Shown: in pieces, positions 23,716 to 42,645 of the stretch | Layout of the letters: each line of letters starts with the position of its first letter | Numbering within the stretch: the stretch's first letter is position 1 | Assembly (NCBI GenBank): GCA_937766455.1 | Contig: CALLXD010000005.1 | Span: forward strand, 1-64,000 | Direction: 5' to 3' | From: Vicinamibacterales bacterium | GTDB lineage: Bacteria; Acidobacteriota; Vicinamibacteria; Vicinamibacterales; UBA8438 | DNA length: 64,000 bases | Made by a program: the position numbers and the translations under genes | Notes under the pieces: generated by a model | Database searches by the model: none | The model's input: only the letters and a program-made list of their open reading frames with translations | What the model was told of the DNA's origin: nothing

Positions 23716-26478
23716 TCAAAGCTCGACGTGACGTAGCCTGAGCGCGTTCGCGATGACCGAGAGCGAGCTGAGTGTCATTGCCGCACTGGCCCACATCGGG
23801 CTAATGAGCACGCCGGTCAGTGGATACAGCACGCCGGCCGCGACGGGGACGCCGACCGCGTTGTAGACGAACGCGAGGAACAGGTTCTGGCGGATGTTGC
23901 GCATGGTGGCGCGGCTCAGCCGACGCGCCTGCACGATAGCGCGGAGGTCGCCCCGGACCAGTGTGATGCCAGCGCTCTCCATCGCGACGTCGGTGCCGGT
24001 CCCCATCGCAATCCCTACCGCAGCTTCCGCCAGTGCGGGCGCATCATTGATGCCGTCGCCGGCCATGGCTACGACCTCACCCGCTGCCTGTCGCTCCGCC
24101 ACGATGCGCCGCTTGTCTGCCGGAAGAACCCCGGCCACCACGTCTGTGATCCCGAGCTGGGACGCTACCGCCTCAGCCGTCAGTCTGCTGTCGCCCGTCA
24201 CCATGACTACCTGCAGGCCGTCGGCGCGAAGCTGCTCGACCGCCGCCGGGGTACTCGGCTTGATCGGATCGTCCACGCCGAGCAGTCCGACAAGCACCCC
24301 GTCCACGGCGACATAGACGACCGTCTGTCCCTCGCGCCGCAGCGCATCGGCACGCACGCTCAGCGCGTCCGTCGCGACCGCGTGCGTCTTCATCAGCGCC
24401 GCAGTCCCCAGGACAACGTGACGCCCATCGACGAGGCCTGTCACACCGTGTCCGACCTCCGCGCGGAAATCAGACACCGACGGCCGAGCCAGCCCGCGGT
24501 CGTTCGCCGCGTCGGTCACCGCGGCGGCTAGCGGGTGTTCGCTGCCGCGTTCGATCGCGGCGGCCGCCGTCAGCAACCTGGTCTCGGTCGAGCCATTCGC
24601 CGGGAGCACGGTTACCAGTACCGGTTTCCCTTCGGTCAGGGTGCCGGTCTTGTCGACCATGATCGTGCTAACGCGCTCCAGTGTCTCCAATGCCTCGGCA
24701 TTCTTGATCAGCACGCCGACGCCGGCGCCACGCCCGGTCCCCACCATGATGGCCATCGGCGTCGCCAATCCGAGCGCGCACGGACAGGCAATGATGAGCA
24801 CCGCGACACTGCTGACCAGGGCCAGCGCCAATCGCGGCTCTGGACCCCAGACGGACCAACCTGCGAAAGCGAGCATCGCGACGGTTACGACCGCCGGGAC
24901 AAAAAATTTCGCCAGTTGGTCGGCCAGGCGCTGAATGGGTGCGCGACTGCGTTGGGCGTCTGACACCATCGTGACGATTTGCGCGAGTAGCGTCTGGGCC
25001 CCCACCCGCTCGGCCGTCATCAGCAGCGTGCCGGATCCGTTCAGGGTCGCTCCCACCACCGCGTCGCCCGCCACTTTTTCGACCGGCACCGGTTCGCCGG
25101 TCACCATCGACTCGTCGACCGCACTGTGACCTTCCACCACGCGACCGTCCACTGGCACCCGTTCCCCCGGACGTACCCGGAGCTGGTCGCCCAGTCGCAC
25201 GACGCCGAGCGGGACATCCTCTTCGTGGTCCCCAACGACGCGCCGAGCCGTCGACGGGGCCAGCCGGAGCAGCGCGCGGAGCGCGGCACCGGTGCGTCCA
25301 CGGGCCCGCAGCTCGAGCACCTGGCCCAGGAGCACCAACGCGACGACGACGACCGCGGTGTCGAAATAGGGCTCGACGCCGCCCGACATCCGAAATCCAT
25401 CGGGAAACAGGCCAGGAGCCATCGTCGCGGCGATGCTGTAGAGATAGGCTGACCCGACGCCCAGCGCGATGAGCGTGAACATGTTGGGGCTGCGATTCAC
25501 CACCGACGCCCATGCGCGTGCAAAAAACGGCCACCCGGCCCAGAGCACGACCGGGGTGGCGCACACCAGTTGGATCCAGTTCGAGGCCGCGCGTCCGATC
25601 GGGCCAGCCTGGCCCCCGAGGACCATCTCCGTCATGGCGAGCCCGAACACCGGCAGCCCAACGAGCGCCGCCACAACGAATCGGCGGGTCATGTCCTCGA
25701 GCTCCGGGTTGGCGGGTTCGGTGGGCGTCACCGCCCGGGCCTCGAGCGCCATGCCGCAGGTCGGACAGCTCCCCGGCCCGTCCTGCATGATTTCCGGGTG
25801 CATCGGGCAGGTGTACTCGACCTGCGCGAGCATGTCAGCGGCCCCCAACTCTGCCTCCAGCGCCATCCCACATTGCGGACAGGCTCCGGGCTCCGGCTCG
25901 CGCACGTCCGGGTCCATTGGGCAGATAAACCAGGTGCCCGGTGGGGGGAGCGGCGTGTCCTCGGTCGCCGGCGCCAGGTAGCGTTCGGGATTGGCCTGAA
26001 ACTTCGTTCGACAGCCGTCGCAGCAGAAGTAGTAGGTCGTGCCGGCATGTTCGTGGCTGATGGTGCTGGTGGCCGGGTCGACGGTCATTCCGCAAACCGG
26101 GTCGACGATGGAGGACGATGCGGGGCGTGACTCGTCGTCAGCCAGAAACAGCGACGGGTCTGTCTCGAATTTCGTCCGACAGCCGTCGCCGCAAAAGTAG
26201 TAGGTCGTGCCGCCATGCTCGTGGCTGATGGTGCTGGTGGTCGGGTCGACCGCCATCCCGCAGACCGGGTCGACGGTCGGGGACGACGCGGGAGGTGCCA
26301 CGTCGCTCGTCAGAAACGGTGACGGGTCTGTCTTGAATTTCGCCCGACAGCCCTCGCCGCAAAAGTAGTAGGTAGTGCCGGCGTGCTCGTGGCTGATGGT
26401 GCCGGTGATCGGGTCGACCGCCATCCCGCAAACCGGATCTTGGACGTCGTGCTCTCGGCTGTCGTAATCTCGGCTCAT
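23716..26478 (-). CDS. copA: Copper-type P1B-ATPase with three YHS domains
   Basis: 920 residues. Three tandem YHS domains (about residues 12-58, 67-113, 122-168), each with DPVCGM and YYFC.(D/E)GCR.KF; then two heavy-metal-binding domains ending CPQCGM and CPTCGM with ICPMDPD/TCPMHPE. The ATPase part has eight helices, the metal motif [11 protein letters not shown], phosphorylation site DKTGTLTEG, and [13 protein letters not shown] implies export of Cu(I) or Ag(I). No HMA domain. Three YHS copies are more than usual. The repeats are also near-identical at DNA level. Confidence 0.9.
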
Positions 26479-27416: not shown

Positions 27417-29361
27417 TCAGTTCCGAATGTGCGATTCGAGCCAGCTCGACCGGAACAGGCGTTGCGCTGCCGTGAGCGGCTGGCCGCGGCGTTCTTGGGC
27501 GACAAGCGTGAACGTGGGGTCCGCCGCGAGAGTGACCTGAGCCGTTCGCAGGTCACCCCGCCGTAGATAGCTCAGGCGCAGCTGGTCCCCCGGCTGATGG
27601 GTCCTGCGTGCCTCGTCGAGCTGCCTGGCCGAAGAGACTGGCCGGTCATCGATCGACACGAGGACATCGTCGCGCTCAAGACCCGCGTCGTATAACGGTG
27701 AATCAAACGGAGCGGGTCCGACCAGCCGGGCACCCTCCCGACCGAACCGGAGCGACGTGTCCCCGAGCCATCCTCCGCGTCCGGTCGTTGGAGCCAGGAT
27801 GAAGCCGGCGCGCGCCAACAGCGGGGCGTAGTCGACGGCCTCGTGACCCTCCACGAACCGGTCAAAGAAGTCGTCGGCGAAGGTGGCGTCGCCGGTCAGA
27901 TCGGCCAGCGCGATGCGGGCGTCGGCCTGGGCATAGGGACGTGCGACCACGCCAGGCGTGTCGCCGCTGGGGCGGCCAAACCGTTCCCACAGCAGTCGCA
28001 TGTAGTCGTCGAGCGTCACGGCCGGGGCGTCTCCGTCGGCGGCACGGGCCCGCAACAGCAGGTCCAGTCCCAACCCAAGCGCTTCGCCCCAGGTGTAGTA
28101 CGAGATAAACAGGTTGTTCCAGTTGGTTCGGTCGATGGCGGTTGCGGCATCGGTAAACGGGGCCAACCGGCTCATATCGACAGCCGAACGGAATTGCCGG
28201 CCCGGCCCTCGCCTCACCGTGTCGATGACAGACAGGAACCGGTTCAGCGTGTCCGCGAGCGGAACCAGGCCAGCCCGCTTCAGAATCAGTGCTCCGTAGT
28301 AGTTCGTGAAGCCTTCGGCGAGCCACAACTCGTCCGAGGGATTCACGCGCTCAAAATCGAAGGGCTCGAGCGAGCGCGGTCTGATGCGCTCGACATTCCA
28401 CACGTGAAAAAACTCATGCGAGGCGGAACCCAGGAGTCCACGCTGTTGCGTATCCAGCGACGCCGGTGAGCTCAACACGGTGCTGTTGCGGTGCTCCATC
28501 GCGTCGCCGTTGGCCCCCGCTAGATAGTCGGCAATAAACGTGTAGCGCCCAGTCTCGAATCGAGGGAATTCACCAAAGACGGTCACCATTTCGCGCACCA
28601 TCCGCTCGATGTTGTCGGTGTAACGAGCGAGATCTGCGTCGGAGCCTTCGTGATGTAAGGCGATACGAAACCTGGGGACGTGGTTCGCGTCAGACGGGTC
28701 AATGACGGTGAACGAGCGGTCCACGAAGGCGCTGAACTCGACGGGGCTATCAAGCAGATAGGCCAGGTTCGGGGCCGTGAATGTCAAAGGATCGTCCGAC
28801 GGGAACAGCTGGGTCGCAACCCGCCACGCCTGTCCTGGAGGCGATACGAACCGCACGGTCGTGGGGCGCTGCTCGACCCCGACACCCCAGAGAATGGAGG
28901 CCGGCATGTTCATGTGGGCGTGGGTCTCATCGATGGCGAGGTAGGTCCCATCGATGCGGTCACCGTAGATCCGGTAGGTGACGTGCACCGTCCTGTCGTG
29001 GCCGTCGATGTCCCAGCGGGCCATCCCGGACCGCATCGGATCGAGAGCGTCCCCCGCTCCATCCTCAGCCCGGAGGTCAAAGACGTTCTTGGCGAAGTCG
29101 TGGCGCGCATACCGTCCCGGTGACGCGCTACTCATCCTCAGACTCAGCGCCGCCGGAGGAAGCCCGGTGAAGGTGATGGCGACCTGCATCCAACGATGTT
29201 CCGGTTCAGGAAAAACGGAACTCATACGAGACTGACGGGTCGTCGGTCCCGCTCAGGGGCTGAGCACCCCTTGCGTGGATGGCCCAGGCGCCGCCAAGCA
29301 CCAGCAGCAGCACCGCCGCCCCGCCTTGAAGTGCCGCCGCCGTATGCGGTCGGGAGGTCAT
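27417..29361 (-). CDS. M61-family peptidase with PDZ domain (frameshift near the N-terminus)
   Basis: As assembled the ORF starts at 29225 without a signal peptide. Upstream, from ATG 29361, a second frame encodes MTSRPHTAAALQGG, a hydrophobic core and AIHARGAQ, then SYEFRF; removing one A from the A5 run at 29211-29215 joins it to PEPEHRWMQVAITF. The corrected protein has about 647 residues. The zinc motif is HEFFHVWNVERIRP with the third ligand Glu in WLAEGFTNYY; a PDZ domain sits at about residues 540-630. M61 enzymes are glycyl-type aminopeptidases; the signal peptide implies export. It begins 10 nt after the disulfide oxidoreductase gene, so they form one operon. Confidence 0.85.
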
Positions 29362-29370
29362 GCGATCGAT

Positions 29371-29992
29371 TCAAGCACGTGCCCGACCGAATGACGCCTC
29401 TGATTCGGCTCCGAGGATCTCGACCCGGTCGTTGACGACGGTTTTTGGTACTCCCGTCCACGCGGTACTGGCGCACGAGATCCGGATACTCGATTGCCGC
29501 CACTGCGGACGCCGTGATGTGTGCATTCTCTAGCGCCAGGCGATGGGCAAGGCTGACCGCCTTGGGGCAGTGTGGTCAGGTTGGCGTCGCAAACACCTGG
29601 ATGTGGATCGGTTGGTCCACTGTCGCGACGAGCGCCCGGCTCTCGTCGCTCAACCCCGAGTCGCCGGAGGCCACCAGCGCGATCGCCTCGACGAGTGACA
29701 CCAGCTCGTGGCCCTCTGGCACTCCGTAGAAGCGAATTCCGACATCCGACTCGCCGACCACGGCAATGGCGGGCACGCGTTGTATGCCATAGGCCTCGAC
29801 CTGATCGGTGTCGAGGACCAGATTGAACTCTTCGACCGTGATCTGGTCGGAGACCGACGCGACGCGGTCCACGACCTGTCGCGCGGACAGACAGGAGTCG
29901 CAACCGAATGTTTGGGTAAAGAACACCAGCCTCACCGGGGCATCAAGGCCGGCCAGCGTCGCTTCGAGGTCGTCCGGGGTGCGAGCATTCAT
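29371..29992 (-). CDS. Candidate selenoprotein: glutaredoxin-like protein disulfide oxidoreductase with UPHC site
   Basis: Two thioredoxin-fold units, as in PDO-family oxidoreductases. The first has FFTQTFGCDSCLSARQ and VPAIAVVGESDVGIRFYGVP; then VDQPIHIQVFATPT, an in-frame TGA (29578-29576), and PHCPKAVSLAHRLA in the same frame. Family members have TPTCPYCP here, so TGA replaces the first active-site Cys. A SECIS-like hairpin follows. Further on, one extra base in CCC (29453-29455) breaks the frame; removing it restores DGVPKTVVND, with the cis-Pro, and a stop at 29371. Corrected length is about 206 residues. Start ATG 29992; a GTG at 30028 is an alternative. No signal peptide, so probably cytoplasmic. 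Sits between a zinc-ribbon gene and the M61 gene. Confidence 0.8.
29548..29564 (-). promoter_or_regulatory. Putative bacterial SECIS hairpin
   Basis: In the mRNA, CAAGGC and GCCUUG pair perfectly (6 bp) around the loop GGUCA. The stem starts 11 nt after the UGA and the loop's two G residues are 18 and 19 nt after it. This fits the published bacterial SECIS pattern: short stem-loop directly downstream of UGA, loop 16-37 nt away, G in the first two loop positions. It would recruit SelB. Confidence 0.7.
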
Positions 29993-30040: not shown

Positions 30041-30496
30041 CTACTTGAACAGGTCGTCAAACTTGTCTTTCACGCTCCGCACACCGCGCACCGAGCCGGT
30101 TACCTCCGAATGGGTCTGGCGCTCGACCGTGACCCGAGGTTCGAACCGGTCACACTGATTCCGCACATCCTTGGGAGAGACCCGGACGGGAATCGGCTGC
30201 ATGCATTCGAAATGGCTGCCGCCGTCGAAGGACGCGCACTGCCCGCATGTGCGCAGGTCGGCGTCGCAACCTGGGCAGGTCGACTCAGGTCCGATCACCA
30301 GCGACAGTGTATTCCCGCAGCGCGCGCACCGGACGACATCGTGAAAACCCGGCATGTTGGGCGTCCGATGCTCGCGGTTGATAACGCCGCGCGGTGCGCC
30401 CTCACGGGGGGCCTTGGGTTTCGGGCCGCGAGACGTCCGCTCCCGGTCCCGGTCGTCGTCCTGGTAACCGCGCTGCTGGTATTTCCGGTCGCTCAT
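30041..30496 (-). CDS. Cysteine-rich zinc-ribbon protein
   Basis: 151 residues from MSDRKYQQRGYQ; the open frame upstream is probably not translated. A highly charged, Arg-rich first ~45 residues precede a zinc-binding part with CARC, CPGC, CGQC and further single cysteines (FECMQP, RNQCDRF), enough for at least two metal sites. The C-terminal ~40 residues are charged, ending KDKFDDLFK. No family name can be given; possible nucleic-acid binding is an inference. First gene of a three-gene run with the disulfide oxidoreductase and M61 peptidase. Confidence 0.7.
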   Translation of the reverse strand: MSDRKYQQRGYQDDDRDRERTSRGPKPKAPREGAPRGVINREHRTPNMPGFHDVVRCARCGNTLSLVIGPESTCPGCDADLRTCGQCASFDGGSHFECMQPIPVRVSPKDVRNQCDRFEPRVTVERQTHSEVTGSVRGVRSVKDKFDDLFK

Positions 30497-39184: not shown

Positions 39185-40351
39185 ATGTTTTCGGTTCGGG
39201 TTCCCGGTGTTGGCTCGAATCGCGTGGCGCGCGTGCTGGCCGCCCATCGAGCGCGAGCCCGAACGCTTGACGACCTGACGGTGTCGAATCCGACCCGGGT
39301 CGGTTTGTCGTATCCTCCGAGCCTCCTCCAGCCGCTGGCTGACCCGGCGGGGCTCCGCTACGATCCGGCCCCGTTCGGGATGCCTGCGGCGCGTGACGCG
39401 GTGGCGTCCCACCTCTCAGACCGCGGCATCTCTGTTGCCCCTGATCGCGTCGTGCTCACTGCGAGTACGAGTGAAGCCTACTCGTTGTTATTCAAGTTGC
39501 TCTGCGACCCCCGGGACGTGGTTCTTGTCCCGCAACCAAGCTACCCGCTGTTCGAGCACCTCACCCGGTTGGAAGGGGTGGTCGCGAGCCCGTATCTGTT
39601 GGAGTATCACGGACGCTGGGAGCTGAACGTGGAGAGCGTCGAGCGCGCGATCGAGCCGCGGGCGAGAGCTATCTTGTTCGTGAATCCCAACAACCCGACG
39701 GGGTCGTTTGTGCGACCCACCGAGTTGGAGGCGGTGCGCGAGGTCGCGGCGAAGCACGAGCTCGCCCTCATCAGTGACGAGGTCTTCGACCTGTACCCGT
39801 TCGATGACCAGGCGAGGGGGACGGCCGGGGCCCTGGTGTCGGAACCGGACGTACTCACGTTCACGCTAGGAGGGCTGTCGAAGACGGCCCTCTTGCCGCA
39901 GCTGAAACTCGGGTGGATACTGGTCGGTGGGCCTCACACGCTCGTACATCGGGCGCTCGATCGGCTCGAATTCATCAGTGATACTTATCTGTCGGTGGCC
40001 AGCCCGGTGCAGGGCGCGGTCGGTGCGCTCCTGAAACACACACGGCCCTTGACGGCCCAGGTGTGCCGCCGGGTCAGAGCCAATATGGCGACTCTCCGCG
40101 GCCTCGTGGTGCAGTTTCCAGCTTGCCAGGTCCTCCACGCGGAAGCTGGGTGGTACGCTGTCGTGCAGGTGCCCGCGACACGTTCCGAGGAGGCGCTGGT
40201 CATCGAACTCATAGAGAAGGACGGCGTCCTGGTGCACCCCGGCTACTTCTTCGACTTTCCCCGCGAGGCGTTCCTGGTGGTGAGCCTGCTTCCGGAACCC
40301 GAACCGTTCGCGAGCGCCATGACCCGGGTGCTGTCCCGAGCTTCCGGATGA
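39185..40351 (+). CDS. Class I/II PLP-dependent aminotransferase
   Basis: 388 residues from ATG 39185, 7 nt after the phosphatase gene. Fold type I aminotransferase: VLTASTSEAYSLLFKLL, ILFVNPNNPTGSFV, LISDEVFDLYPF (Asp and Tyr region), PLP lysine in GGLSKTALLPQLKLGW and a final Arg region. Substrate is not predictable; aspartate/alanine-type or aromatic amino acids are possible. Its TGA overlaps the next ATG (ATGA). Confidence 0.88.
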   Translation: MFSVRVPGVGSNRVARVLAAHRARARTLDDLTVSNPTRVGLSYPPSLLQPLADPAGLRYDPAPFGMPAARDAVASHLSDRGISVAPDRVVLTASTSEAYSLLFKLLCDPRDVVLVPQPSYPLFEHLTRLEGVVASPYLLEYHGRWELNVESVERAIEPRARAILFVNPNNPTGSFVRPTELEAVREVAAKHELALISDEVFDLYPFDDQARGTAGALVSEPDVLTFTLGGLSKTALLPQLKLGWILVGGPHTLVHRALDRLEFISDTYLSVASPVQGAVGALLKHTRPLTAQVCRRVRANMATLRGLVVQFPACQVLHAEAGWYAVVQVPATRSEEALVIELIEKDGVLVHPGYFFDFPREAFLVVSLLPEPEPFASAMTRVLSRASG

Positions 40352-42645
40352 ACAATCAGCCGGTGCCGGTCGTGAAGGACCTCGTCCTGATCGGCGGGGG
40401 GCACACGCATGTCAGCGTGCTGAGGCGGTTCGGGATGCGTCCGCTTGCCGGCGTCCGGCTGACCCTGATCACCCGAGACGTGCACACGCCGTATTCCGGC
40501 ATGTTGCCGGGCCTGGTTTCAGGTCACTACGACTTCGACGATGTGCATATCGACTTGGGGCCATTGAGTCGATTCGCCGACGCGAGGCTGTTTCATCAGC
40601 CTGTGACGGGACTCGACCTGGAGCGTCAGCACGTCTTGTGCGACGGACGGCCGCCGGTGCCGTACGACCTGTTGTCCCTGAACATCGGTTCGACACCCTC
40701 TTTCGGTGGCGTGCCGGGGGCGGCGGAGGTCGTGGTACCGGTCAAGCCGATCAGCCGGTTTGTGCCACGGTGGGAGCGGATACGGGCTCGCGTGTCAGCC
40801 TCGAAAGCGCCGATCCGTATCGGCGTGGTGGGTGCTGGCGCCGGTGGAGTCGAGTTGACGCTGGCCGTCGAGCACGCGCTCCGGCATGCCTGCCAGGCGT
40901 CAGGCGGGTCAGACGATACCGTCGAGGTGCACTTATTCGGTGCCAACCGTACCATCCTGTCCACCCACAATCGCGGCATGCGGCGGCGACTGGAGCGGGC
41001 GCTACGCGAACGCTGCGTGCACCTCCATCTGGGGCAAAGCGTGTCCGCCGTGGCTGAAGGACAGCTCACCCTGGCCGACGGCAGCACCGTGGCGGTCGAC
41101 GAAATCCTCTGGGTGACGCAGGCAGGAGCGGCCCCGTGGTTGGCCGAGTCCGGGCTCGACGTCGACGAGCACGGGTTTGTCCGCGTCGACGATACCCTCC
41201 AGTCGTGTTCGCATCCCGGGGTGTTTGCCGCCGGCGATGTGGCGGCAGTGGTCAATCATCCGCGTGAGAAGGCGGGGGTGTTCGCGGTGCGCCAGGGACC
41301 ACCGCTGGCCGAGAATCTGCGACGGGCATTGCTTGGTCGACGCCTTCGGCCGTTTCGTCCCCAGAAACGATTCCTGACCCTGGTCTCGACCGGCGGTCGC
41401 CATGCCGTCGGGTCCCGCGGGTGGTGGTCGTTCGAGGGCGATCTCGTGTGGCGGTGGAAAGATTGGATCGACCGCCGTTTCATGTCCCGCTACGCCGATT
41501 TGCCTGCCATGTCCGCTGAGGCCCCACCGGCGCTGGAGCCGGGTCTCGCCTCGTCAGAGGCGCTGCGCGAAATCTCGACGGCCGCCATGCGCTGCGGCGG
41601 CTGTGGGTCGAAAGTGGGAGCGACCCCGCTCACCCGCGTGCTCGAACAGCTGGCACCGATACGGCGAGATGACGTACTCATCGGGCTCGATGCGCCAGAT
41701 GACGCGGCCGTCGTCTCAGTGCCGCCGGGTAAGGTGCTGGTGCGTACGGTGGATGCGTTTCGAGCCATCGTGAATGACCCGTTTGTTTTCGGTCAGATCA
41801 CGGCCAACCACTGCCTCGGCGACATCTTCGCGATGGGCGCAGAAGCCCAGACGGCACTGGCGGTGGCGACGGTGCCGTTCGGACTCGACCGGAAGGTCGA
41901 AGACACCTTGGTGCAACTGCTGTCGGGAGCAGTCCAGGTCCTCAATGACGCCGGAGCGGCGTTGGTGGGAGGACATACCAGTGAAGGCGTCGAGTTGTCG
42001 CTCGGCCTGTCGTTGACCGGGTTGGTCGACCGCGACGCGGTGCTCCGCAAGGGCGGCCTTCGAGCCGGCGACCGCCTGGTGCTGACGAAAGGGATCGGCA
42101 CCGGCACGCTGTTCGCGGCTGAGATGCGCATGCGAGCCAAGGGCCGGTGGATTGACGGGGCGATTGCAGCCATGCGGCAGTCGAGCCGCGCCGCGGCCGA
42201 TGTGCTGCGCCGTCACCAGGCCAGCGCCTGCACCGATGTCACCGGGTTCGGGCTATTAGGACATCTGGTGGAAATGACCAGAGCGTCCGGCGTGGACGTT
42301 CGACTCGATCTGCCCGCGGTGCCGGTGCTGGACGGCGCGCTCGAGACGAGTGCCGCCGGGTTTCTCAGTTCCCTCCATCCGCACAATGTGCGGCTCCGGC
42401 GCGCCGTTGCCGACATCGAGCGCGTGAGCGCCGACCCGCGGTATACGTTGCTGTACGACCCGCAGACCTCCGGTGGGCTCCTGGCCGGCGTTCCAGCAGA
42501 CCGAGCGCAGGCTTGCGTCGATGACCTGCTCGCGAACGGCTATCATCAGGCCGCCATCATCGGTACCGTCGAGCCTCGACGCGAGGACGATCCCGGTACC
42601 TCACGGGAGCACGACGCTCCGATTCATATCGAAGGAGTTGCATGA
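40348..42645 (+). CDS. selD: Selenide, water dikinase fused to an FAD-dependent oxidoreductase
   Basis: 765 residues. Residues 1-~385 are an NADH-dehydrogenase-2-like flavoprotein: LVLIGGGHTHVSVL binds FAD, VVGAGAGGVELTLAVE is the second Rossmann motif, GVFAAGDVAAV closes the FAD site. Residues ~415-750 are SelD: MRCGGCGSKVG contains the catalytic Cys and Lys, then GLDAPDDAAVV, NHCLGDIFAMGA, ALVGGHTSEG and DVTGFGLLGHLVE. SelD makes selenophosphate for selenocysteine and selenouridine. Such fusions are known in other bacteria; the flavin domain may supply reduced selenium. Start overlaps the aminotransferase stop. Confidence 0.93.
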   Translation: MNNQPVPVVKDLVLIGGGHTHVSVLRRFGMRPLAGVRLTLITRDVHTPYSGMLPGLVSGHYDFDDVHIDLGPLSRFADARLFHQPVTGLDLERQHVLCDGRPPVPYDLLSLNIGSTPSFGGVPGAAEVVVPVKPISRFVPRWERIRARVSASKAPIRIGVVGAGAGGVELTLAVEHALRHACQASGGSDDTVEVHLFGANRTILSTHNRGMRRRLERALRERCVHLHLGQSVSAVAEGQLTLADGSTVAVDEILWVTQAGAAPWLAESGLDVDEHGFVRVDDTLQSCSHPGVFAAGDVAAVVNHPREKAGVFAVRQGPPLAENLRRALLGRRLRPFRPQKRFLTLVSTGGRHAVGSRGWWSFEGDLVWRWKDWIDRRFMSRYADLPAMSAEAPPALEPGLASSEALREISTAAMRCGGCGSKVGATPLTRVLEQLAPIRRDDVLIGLDAPDDAAVVSVPPGKVLVRTVDAFRAIVNDPFVFGQITANHCLGDIFAMGAEAQTALAVATVPFGLDRKVEDTLVQLLSGAVQVLNDAGAALVGGHTSEGVELSLGLSLTGLVDRDAVLRKGGLRAGDRLVLTKGIGTGTLFAAEMRMRAKGRWIDGAIAAMRQSSRAAADVLRRHQASACTDVTGFGLLGHLVEMTRASGVDVRLDLPAVPVLDGALETSAAGFLSSLHPHNVRLRRAVADIERVSADPRYTLLYDPQTSGGLLAGVPADRAQACVDDLLANGYHQAAIIGTVEPRREDDPGTSREHDAPIHIEGVA

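Follow-up and report, generated by a model that had tools for sequence, protein, structure and literature searches.

An in-frame TGA at the C-terminal active site of a Vicinamibacterales protein disulfide oxidoreductase gene is very probably decoded as selenocysteine

The protein disulfide oxidoreductases (PDOs) of archaea and Aquifex represented by structures 1a8l, 1j08, 2ywm, 2ayt, and 2hls come from hyperthermophiles, and all are built from two thioredoxin folds with two redox sites. In Sulfolobus, electrons pass from NADPH via thioredoxin reductase to the PDO and on to peroxiredoxins, and the C-terminal site of this protein has a fundamental role in thiol transfer, according to the portions of PMC7465337 and PMC7278568 that were available. 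The same portion of PMC7465337 describes PDOs as confined to thermophiles.

The family is already known to have members that contain selenocysteine (Sec), a point on which the initial annotation of this DNA had been undecided. Such forms are represented by the NCBIfam entry ‘PDO_seleno_TRX’ and, within the accessible text of each paper, by PMC13188914, PMC1794560, and PMC11227280. The accessible text of PMC1794560 reports two such selenoproteins, naming Carboxydothermus and Symbiobacterium, and lists Acidobacteria with 3 families and 4 selenoproteins that it does not name, and that of PMC11227280 adds four Asgard sequences to the Sec forms of the PDO family. In the excerpt available from PMC12013277, three known selenoprotein genes are given for one Acidobacteriota genome. 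Terms for AhpF, glutaredoxin, and acidobacteria were looked for in PMC5029168 and none was found. Among the papers retrieved by full-text searches joining selenoproteins with Acidobacteria or Acidobacteriota, none deals, by title and start of abstract, with this protein in these organisms, and the corresponding search for Vicinamibacter apparently gave no paper holding all of the terms.

Here we describe a PDO gene from a Vicinamibacterales bacterium, located in a stretch of 64,000 nucleotides that was analyzed as a whole and is called the window below. An in-frame TGA at the active site of this gene is very likely read as Sec, which would yield a predicted two-domain thiol-disulfide reductase wherein a Sec-Pro-His-Cys site does most of the chemistry. 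The initial annotation had proposed a selenoprotein of the PDO family, and this proposal is supported by several lines of sequence evidence, namely conservation of the TGA, its exchange with Cys codons, a hairpin behind it, selection, and the presence of Sec machinery. The window protein resembles the known Sec forms in belonging to the same family by curated cut-off and in having the same UxxC motif (PMC13188914, in its accessible part); the representative listed there is ABB15282.1 from Carboxydothermus. Compared with the known Sec forms, the host here belongs to the Acidobacteriota, Sec predominates in the order of the window, and some Sec forms do not have the N-terminal Cys pair.

A two-domain PDO gene with TGA in its second redox site

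An ATG at position 29992 of the minus strand starts the frame, and after the TGA at 29578-29576 the same frame runs on. The initial annotation had read the frame and the N-terminal CDSC site in this way, and translation bears out both. The read-through product around the TGA is HIQVFATPT-U-PHCPKAVSLAHRLA, and the gene comprises the following parts.

29579..29992, minus strand: 5′ part of the PDO gene, from the ATG to the codon before the TGA, encoding the N-terminal thioredoxin fold and the beginning of the C-terminal fold
29891..29902, minus strand: N-terminal redox site CDSC (residues 31-34) with ordinary Cys, from the read-through translation
29576..29578, minus strand: in-frame TGA, residue 139, a putative Sec codon from the translation and from codon conservation across loci
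29567..29578, minus strand: C-terminal redox site U-P-H-C (residues 139-142), opposite the C-terminal CxxC of 1a8l, 2ywm, and 2ayt in sequence alignments
29453..29575, minus strand: same-frame coding sequence 3′ of the TGA, within a family match spanning 29453-29974 and under purifying selection in intact relatives

The read-through product scores 200 bits against NCBIfam TIGR02187 (‘PDO_seleno_TRX, protein disulfide oxidoreductase’), above the cut-off of 185, which agrees with the earlier assignment to the glutaredoxin-like PDO family; an intact relative reaches 238.7 bits against the same model and cut-off. This match covers residues 7-180, and Pfam Thioredoxin_3 matches residues 30-101. The nearest solved structures by sequence are the PDOs of Aquifex, Pyrococcus, and Aeropyrum (E values from 7e-38 to 2e-24). 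In alignments with three PDO structures (1a8l, 2ywm, and 2ayt), the TGA column falls on the first Cys in their C-terminal sites, and the position proposed in the initial annotation is thus matched in the Pyrococcus and Aquifex proteins.

The two-fold architecture was read from an AlphaFold2 model of an intact relative, L080, with Cys substituted for Sec; the assembled tail of the window copy is frame-broken. This model has a mean pLDDT of 94.5 and two tandem thioredoxin folds, and it best matches 2ywm, 2ayt, and 1a8l (TM-score by query 0.89-0.91), with scores of 0.87-0.91 across the archaeal and Aquifex PDOs. As in those proteins, each fold of the window PDO has a CxxC-type site, one CDSC and the other UPHC. 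The archaeal and Aquifex PDOs differ in having Cys in the C-terminal site, where the window PDO has the putative Sec codon.

More distant relatives were also compared. The N-terminal domain of AhpF (1zyn, 1hyu, 4o5q, and 5h29) likewise has two thioredoxin folds in tandem, with TM-scores by query of 0.79-0.86. AhpF also carries a fused reductase and retains one redox-active CxxC in its N-terminal part, and the window protein scores 61.9 against the AhpF model, below the cut-off of 502.9 for the full-length protein with its reductase domain. Selenoprotein glutaredoxins and thioredoxins share the UxxC motif in a thioredoxin fold (PMC13188914, in the part available), but they are single-domain proteins, whereas the window PDO has two domains. 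Scores against single-domain models are likewise below their cut-offs (GRX_bact, 16.6 versus 90; GRXA, 18.2 versus 106.5; thioredoxin, 16 versus 96.8).

The window PDO leaves its own frame about 44 codons behind the TGA. Thus the frame first annotated, 29992-29371, holds to about residue 180-184, and beyond this point the tail lies in the other two frames.

29358..29452, minus strand: C-terminal tail, from the VPK loop to the C-terminus, with homologous residues in two other frames; intact in relatives

Because the homologous tail sits in these other frames, the last ∼24 residues of the read-through product are not the real tail, and the assembled copy, being frame-broken after about residue 180, would be without the cis-Pro loop and the last strands. 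Of the 64 Sec forms, 63 have Pro in the cis-Pro column, and the sole exception, a Thr, fits the window copy. One reading of this break, which we regard as improbable but not negligible, is that the Sec family is real and the window copy is a decaying gene, wherein the break is biological and not an assembly error. The change of frame within the homologous tail is consistent with decay, but other genes of the assembly also look frame-broken, and conservation up to the break is good (84% identity over residues 1-184 to the protein of a related genome, G003). Small assembly errors are the likely cause, since the neighboring peptidase gene and the thioredoxin reductase gene trxB look frame-broken as well. 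The break does not affect the TGA, and the TGA recurs in other genomes.

The TGA column and its hairpin among relatives

We surveyed 100 genomes, comprising that of the window and 99 relatives. The window protein is matched in 56 of these, and 54 were counted as carriers of the gene; weak matches (E values from 5e-4 to 9e-4) in G015, in G080, and at a second locus of G021 were left out of the PDO counts. Sec is the usual PDO form in the order of the window, wherein 49 of the 54 carrier genomes have the TGA form and 5 have a Cys form only. One genome, G029, has both a TGA form and a Cys copy, and all four other genomes of the genus in the set have one TGA within the PDO match. The codon was verified in 48 of the 49 TGA-form genomes, and that of G026 (locus L072, which has no row) rests on the genome-wide protein match.

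Counted in ungapped codon registers, 48 non-redundant loci, among them that of the window, have TGA in this column, a recurrence far beyond chance, and 13 have TGC or TGT, with 7 of the 13 Cys forms belonging to other phyla. The partial or single-domain loci L097, L098, and L099 were left out of this codon set and of later ones, and L091 was also left out of the tree. A search of the phylum placed 72 of 396 genomes above the family cut-off, and by table count a single TGA falls within the match in 30 of these genomes, 11 of them from outside the order of the window. From this search 40 loci were added, of which 20 were the best-scoring and 20 were chosen by hand, with TGA forms not yet fetched taken first. 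The resulting 101 non-redundant loci include 64 with TGA and 37 with TGC or TGT, proportions that are not a frequency because some loci were chosen for their TGA. The exchange of Cys and Sec at this column, which the initial annotation had named as a sign to look for, is thus found.

If the TGA were a true stop, the gene would be a pseudogene or would encode a 138-residue protein without the C-terminal site. Database entries lend this reading some support, as does the frame-broken tail of the assembly. Among the best 120 of 3155 database matches, four proteins of 138-150 amino acids (P0018, P0032, P0038, and P0040) all stop exactly before the TGA, and the three full-length proteins fetched beside them have Cys at its position. 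Homologues that end at the TGA, which the initial annotation had held would speak against a selenoprotein, therefore exist in the database, but the DNA of relatives continues as conserved coding sequence, and these entries are truncated annotations. Being cut at the TGA, the four proteins lose the catalytic C-terminal site. We compared 11 intact relatives of the same family in 55 pairs, over 69 codons on either side of the TGA. The pN/pS ratio is 0.279 before the TGA and 0.225 behind it, so purifying selection acts on both parts alike and the region behind behaves as translated sequence. Moreover, in the checked loci the column shows TGA or Cys codons and never TAA or TAG. Because selection acts behind the TGA, we rejected the true stop and pseudogene readings, which we hold to be very unlikely. 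Also against them stands a conserved hairpin.

29548..29564, minus strand: SECIS-like hairpin with a 6-bp stem (CAAGGC/GCCTTG) and a GGTCA loop 17 nt behind the TGA, -9.1 kcal/mol

This hairpin fits the bacterial SECIS model given in the accessible part of PMC13188914. By itself it is no stronger than shuffled sequences (z -0.85), and no Rfam family matches at its position. Across homologues, it is conserved beyond codon constraint and is not due to chance. The full set of six stem pairs is present in 27 of the 48 TGA forms and in none of the 13 Cys forms, and in TGA forms redrawn with synonymous codons (1000 draws, protein kept) the mean is 2.6 and the maximum 8. The five-base loop begins with GGU in 42 of the 48 TGA forms and with CGU in 6. 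When the stem is chosen freely, with the loop 16-18 nt behind the UGA and a stability of -7.5 kcal/mol or lower, a hairpin is present in 60 of 64 TGA forms, compared with a mean of 35.7 and a maximum of 43 in 60 codon-redrawn draws. The Cys forms reach 12 of 37 under the same 16-18 nt criterion, matching their null mean of 11.4. Both nulls use one codon table pooled from the site-flanking codons of TGA forms, which was applied also to the Cys forms of other phyla. If the range is widened to 16-37 nt at the same energy, 61 of the 64 TGA forms and 18 of the 37 Cys forms have a hairpin, figures that carry no codon-redrawn control; because so many Cys forms reach -7.5 kcal/mol in this range, only the narrow position together with the controls discriminates. 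Some Sec forms of other families (e.g., L123) use a different stem with a 3-nt GGU loop.

Small errors in this assembly are suggested by the broken frames of the PDO tail, the neighboring peptidase gene, and apparently trxB, and a miscalled Cys codon in an error-prone assembly could be considered for the TGA itself. We rejected this reading, whose probability we judge to be minimal, because 47 further non-redundant loci, from other genomes, have the same TGA and because near-identical 138-residue database proteins stop there too, with P0032 coming from another source.

Sec machinery and a predicted route of electrons

The genome of the window (3.45 Mb in 78 contigs, 85% complete) has matches above the cut-offs to SelA (533.9 bits), SelB (344.8 bits), and tRNA-Sec (66.6 bits, anticodon TCA). 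The initial annotation had taken absence of these genes from the genome as grounds for abandoning the Sec reading, and all three are present. It had also placed SelD 10 kb away; SelD is indeed encoded in the window, at a distance of 12.0 kb from the TGA.

41578..42504, plus strand: selD (selenophosphate synthetase) domain, 291 bits against a cut-off of 125, with Cys in its motif RCGGCGSK

This domain is the C-terminal part of an 860-residue open reading frame (40063-42645, plus strand) that has a pyridine-nucleotide oxidoreductase domain as its N-terminal part.

Among the 100 genomes, 46 of the 49 with the TGA form have a selA match above the cut-off, as do 2 of the 5 with Cys forms only and 31 of the 46 without the gene, and the presence of selA differs between TGA-form and Cys-only genomes (Fisher p 0.007). 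Three TGA-form genomes do not have a full selA match, with none in G019 and fragments only in G026 and G064. The 31 genomes with selA and no PDO gene suggest that other selenoproteins also maintain the machinery. An altered code or near-cognate suppression, by which the UGA would be read as Trp or some other amino acid, is compatible with the open frame taken alone, but this reading was rejected as scarcely credible because the column exchanges only with Cys in the checked loci, and it is further opposed by the tRNA-Sec with anticodon TCA, SelA, and SelB of this genome and by the many copies of the same genes in relatives that end in TGA.

For the Sec reading, the following route can be proposed. 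SelB would deliver Sec-tRNA to the UGA with the aid of the hairpin. By analogy with the archaeal enzymes, the NADPH/thioredoxin reductase system may reduce the seleno-PDO, and the window genome has a thioredoxin reductase match above the cut-off. The Sec selenolate would attack disulfides of substrates, Cys142 would resolve the mixed selenosulfide that results, and the N-terminal CDSC site may relay electrons in proteins that have it. A selenolate/Cys142 reductase is expected because Sec occupies the site that is fundamental to thiol transfer in Sulfolobus PDO. Peroxiredoxins and other oxidized cytosolic proteins would be likely clients, again by analogy with archaeal PDO. The thioredoxin reductase gene (trxB) of the same genome, at G000:C46:36901-37799, matches in two pieces that lie in different frames, a further hint of small assembly errors.

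The surroundings of the gene were compared in 11 loci for genes shared with the window.

30041..30496, minus strand: conserved upstream neighbor of 151 residues with several CxxC pairs and no Pfam hit, from the locus comparison
27417..29225, minus strand: downstream neighbor, an M61 glycyl aminopeptidase with a frame-broken 5′ end, from the window annotation and the locus comparison

In all 10 family-f1 loci compared, the gene immediately upstream of PDO encodes a CxxC protein of ∼150 residues, and the M61 peptidase is matched downstream in 8 of the 10; at L089, from Calditrichota, neither was matched. No redox partner was seen among the neighboring window genes shared with the 11 other loci, and neither the upstream CxxC protein nor the M61 peptidase was retained as a functional partner, as neither accounts for a redox role. 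The M61 gene is broken in frame at 29225-29360 (minus strand), between the signal-peptide region and the mature part, and forms one open frame in three relatives. A gene for a P-type metal ATPase (23716-26478, minus strand), which contains three YHS and two heavy-metal-binding stretches, is found close to the PDO gene here and in several relatives.

Spread of the Sec form and loss of the N-terminal Cys pair

A tree of 100 rows (64 Sec and 36 Cys) requires at least 13 changes of label, 10 of which are forced by well-supported branches, whereas shuffled labels on the same tree need about 30; its root and the ancestral state, Sec or Cys, are not fixed. The Cys forms L046 and L055 share with three Sec forms a clade of family f6 that is itself nested among Sec rows, and in family f90 the Sec form L123 groups with the Cys forms L110 and L112. 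Because Cys rows sit in clades with Sec forms in this manner, exchange between Sec and Cys is common here.

The second residue of the C-terminal site, Cys142, is kept in all 64 Sec forms. The N-terminal CxxC is kept in 52 of the 64 and is missing from the 12 listed here, all of which keep the Sec site.

Family f2 (nine rows): L061, L063, L065, L066, and L134-L138
Families f16/f17: L130, L131, and L133

Loss of the N-terminal pair is not tied to Sec, because Cys forms lose it too (5 of 37). The site that is always kept, in Sec and Cys forms alike, is the C-terminal one. A broader account, to which we give even chances, is that Sec is the ancient and prevailing form of PDO throughout Vicinamibacterales and extends to other Acidobacteriota, that Sec and Cys have been exchanged repeatedly, with the SECIS hairpin drifting off after the change to Cys, and that several Sec lineages without the N-terminal Cys pair represent a one-site seleno-PDO run by the Sec site alone.

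Within the literature searched, the prevalence of the Sec form in the order of the window and its reach into other Acidobacteriota are apparently undescribed. The same apparently holds for the Sec/Cys exchange in PDO, for Sec forms that lack the N-terminal Cys pair, and for database entries cut at the TGA.

Acidobacteriota are a common phylum of soil and marine environments, and the loci described here add a sizeable set of likely Sec enzymes for this phylum. The many near relatives that differ in having Sec or Cys at this codon, and in having or lacking the N-terminal pair, constitute a natural series for examining what Sec buys a disulfide reductase and how a SECIS hairpin decays once Sec is lost.
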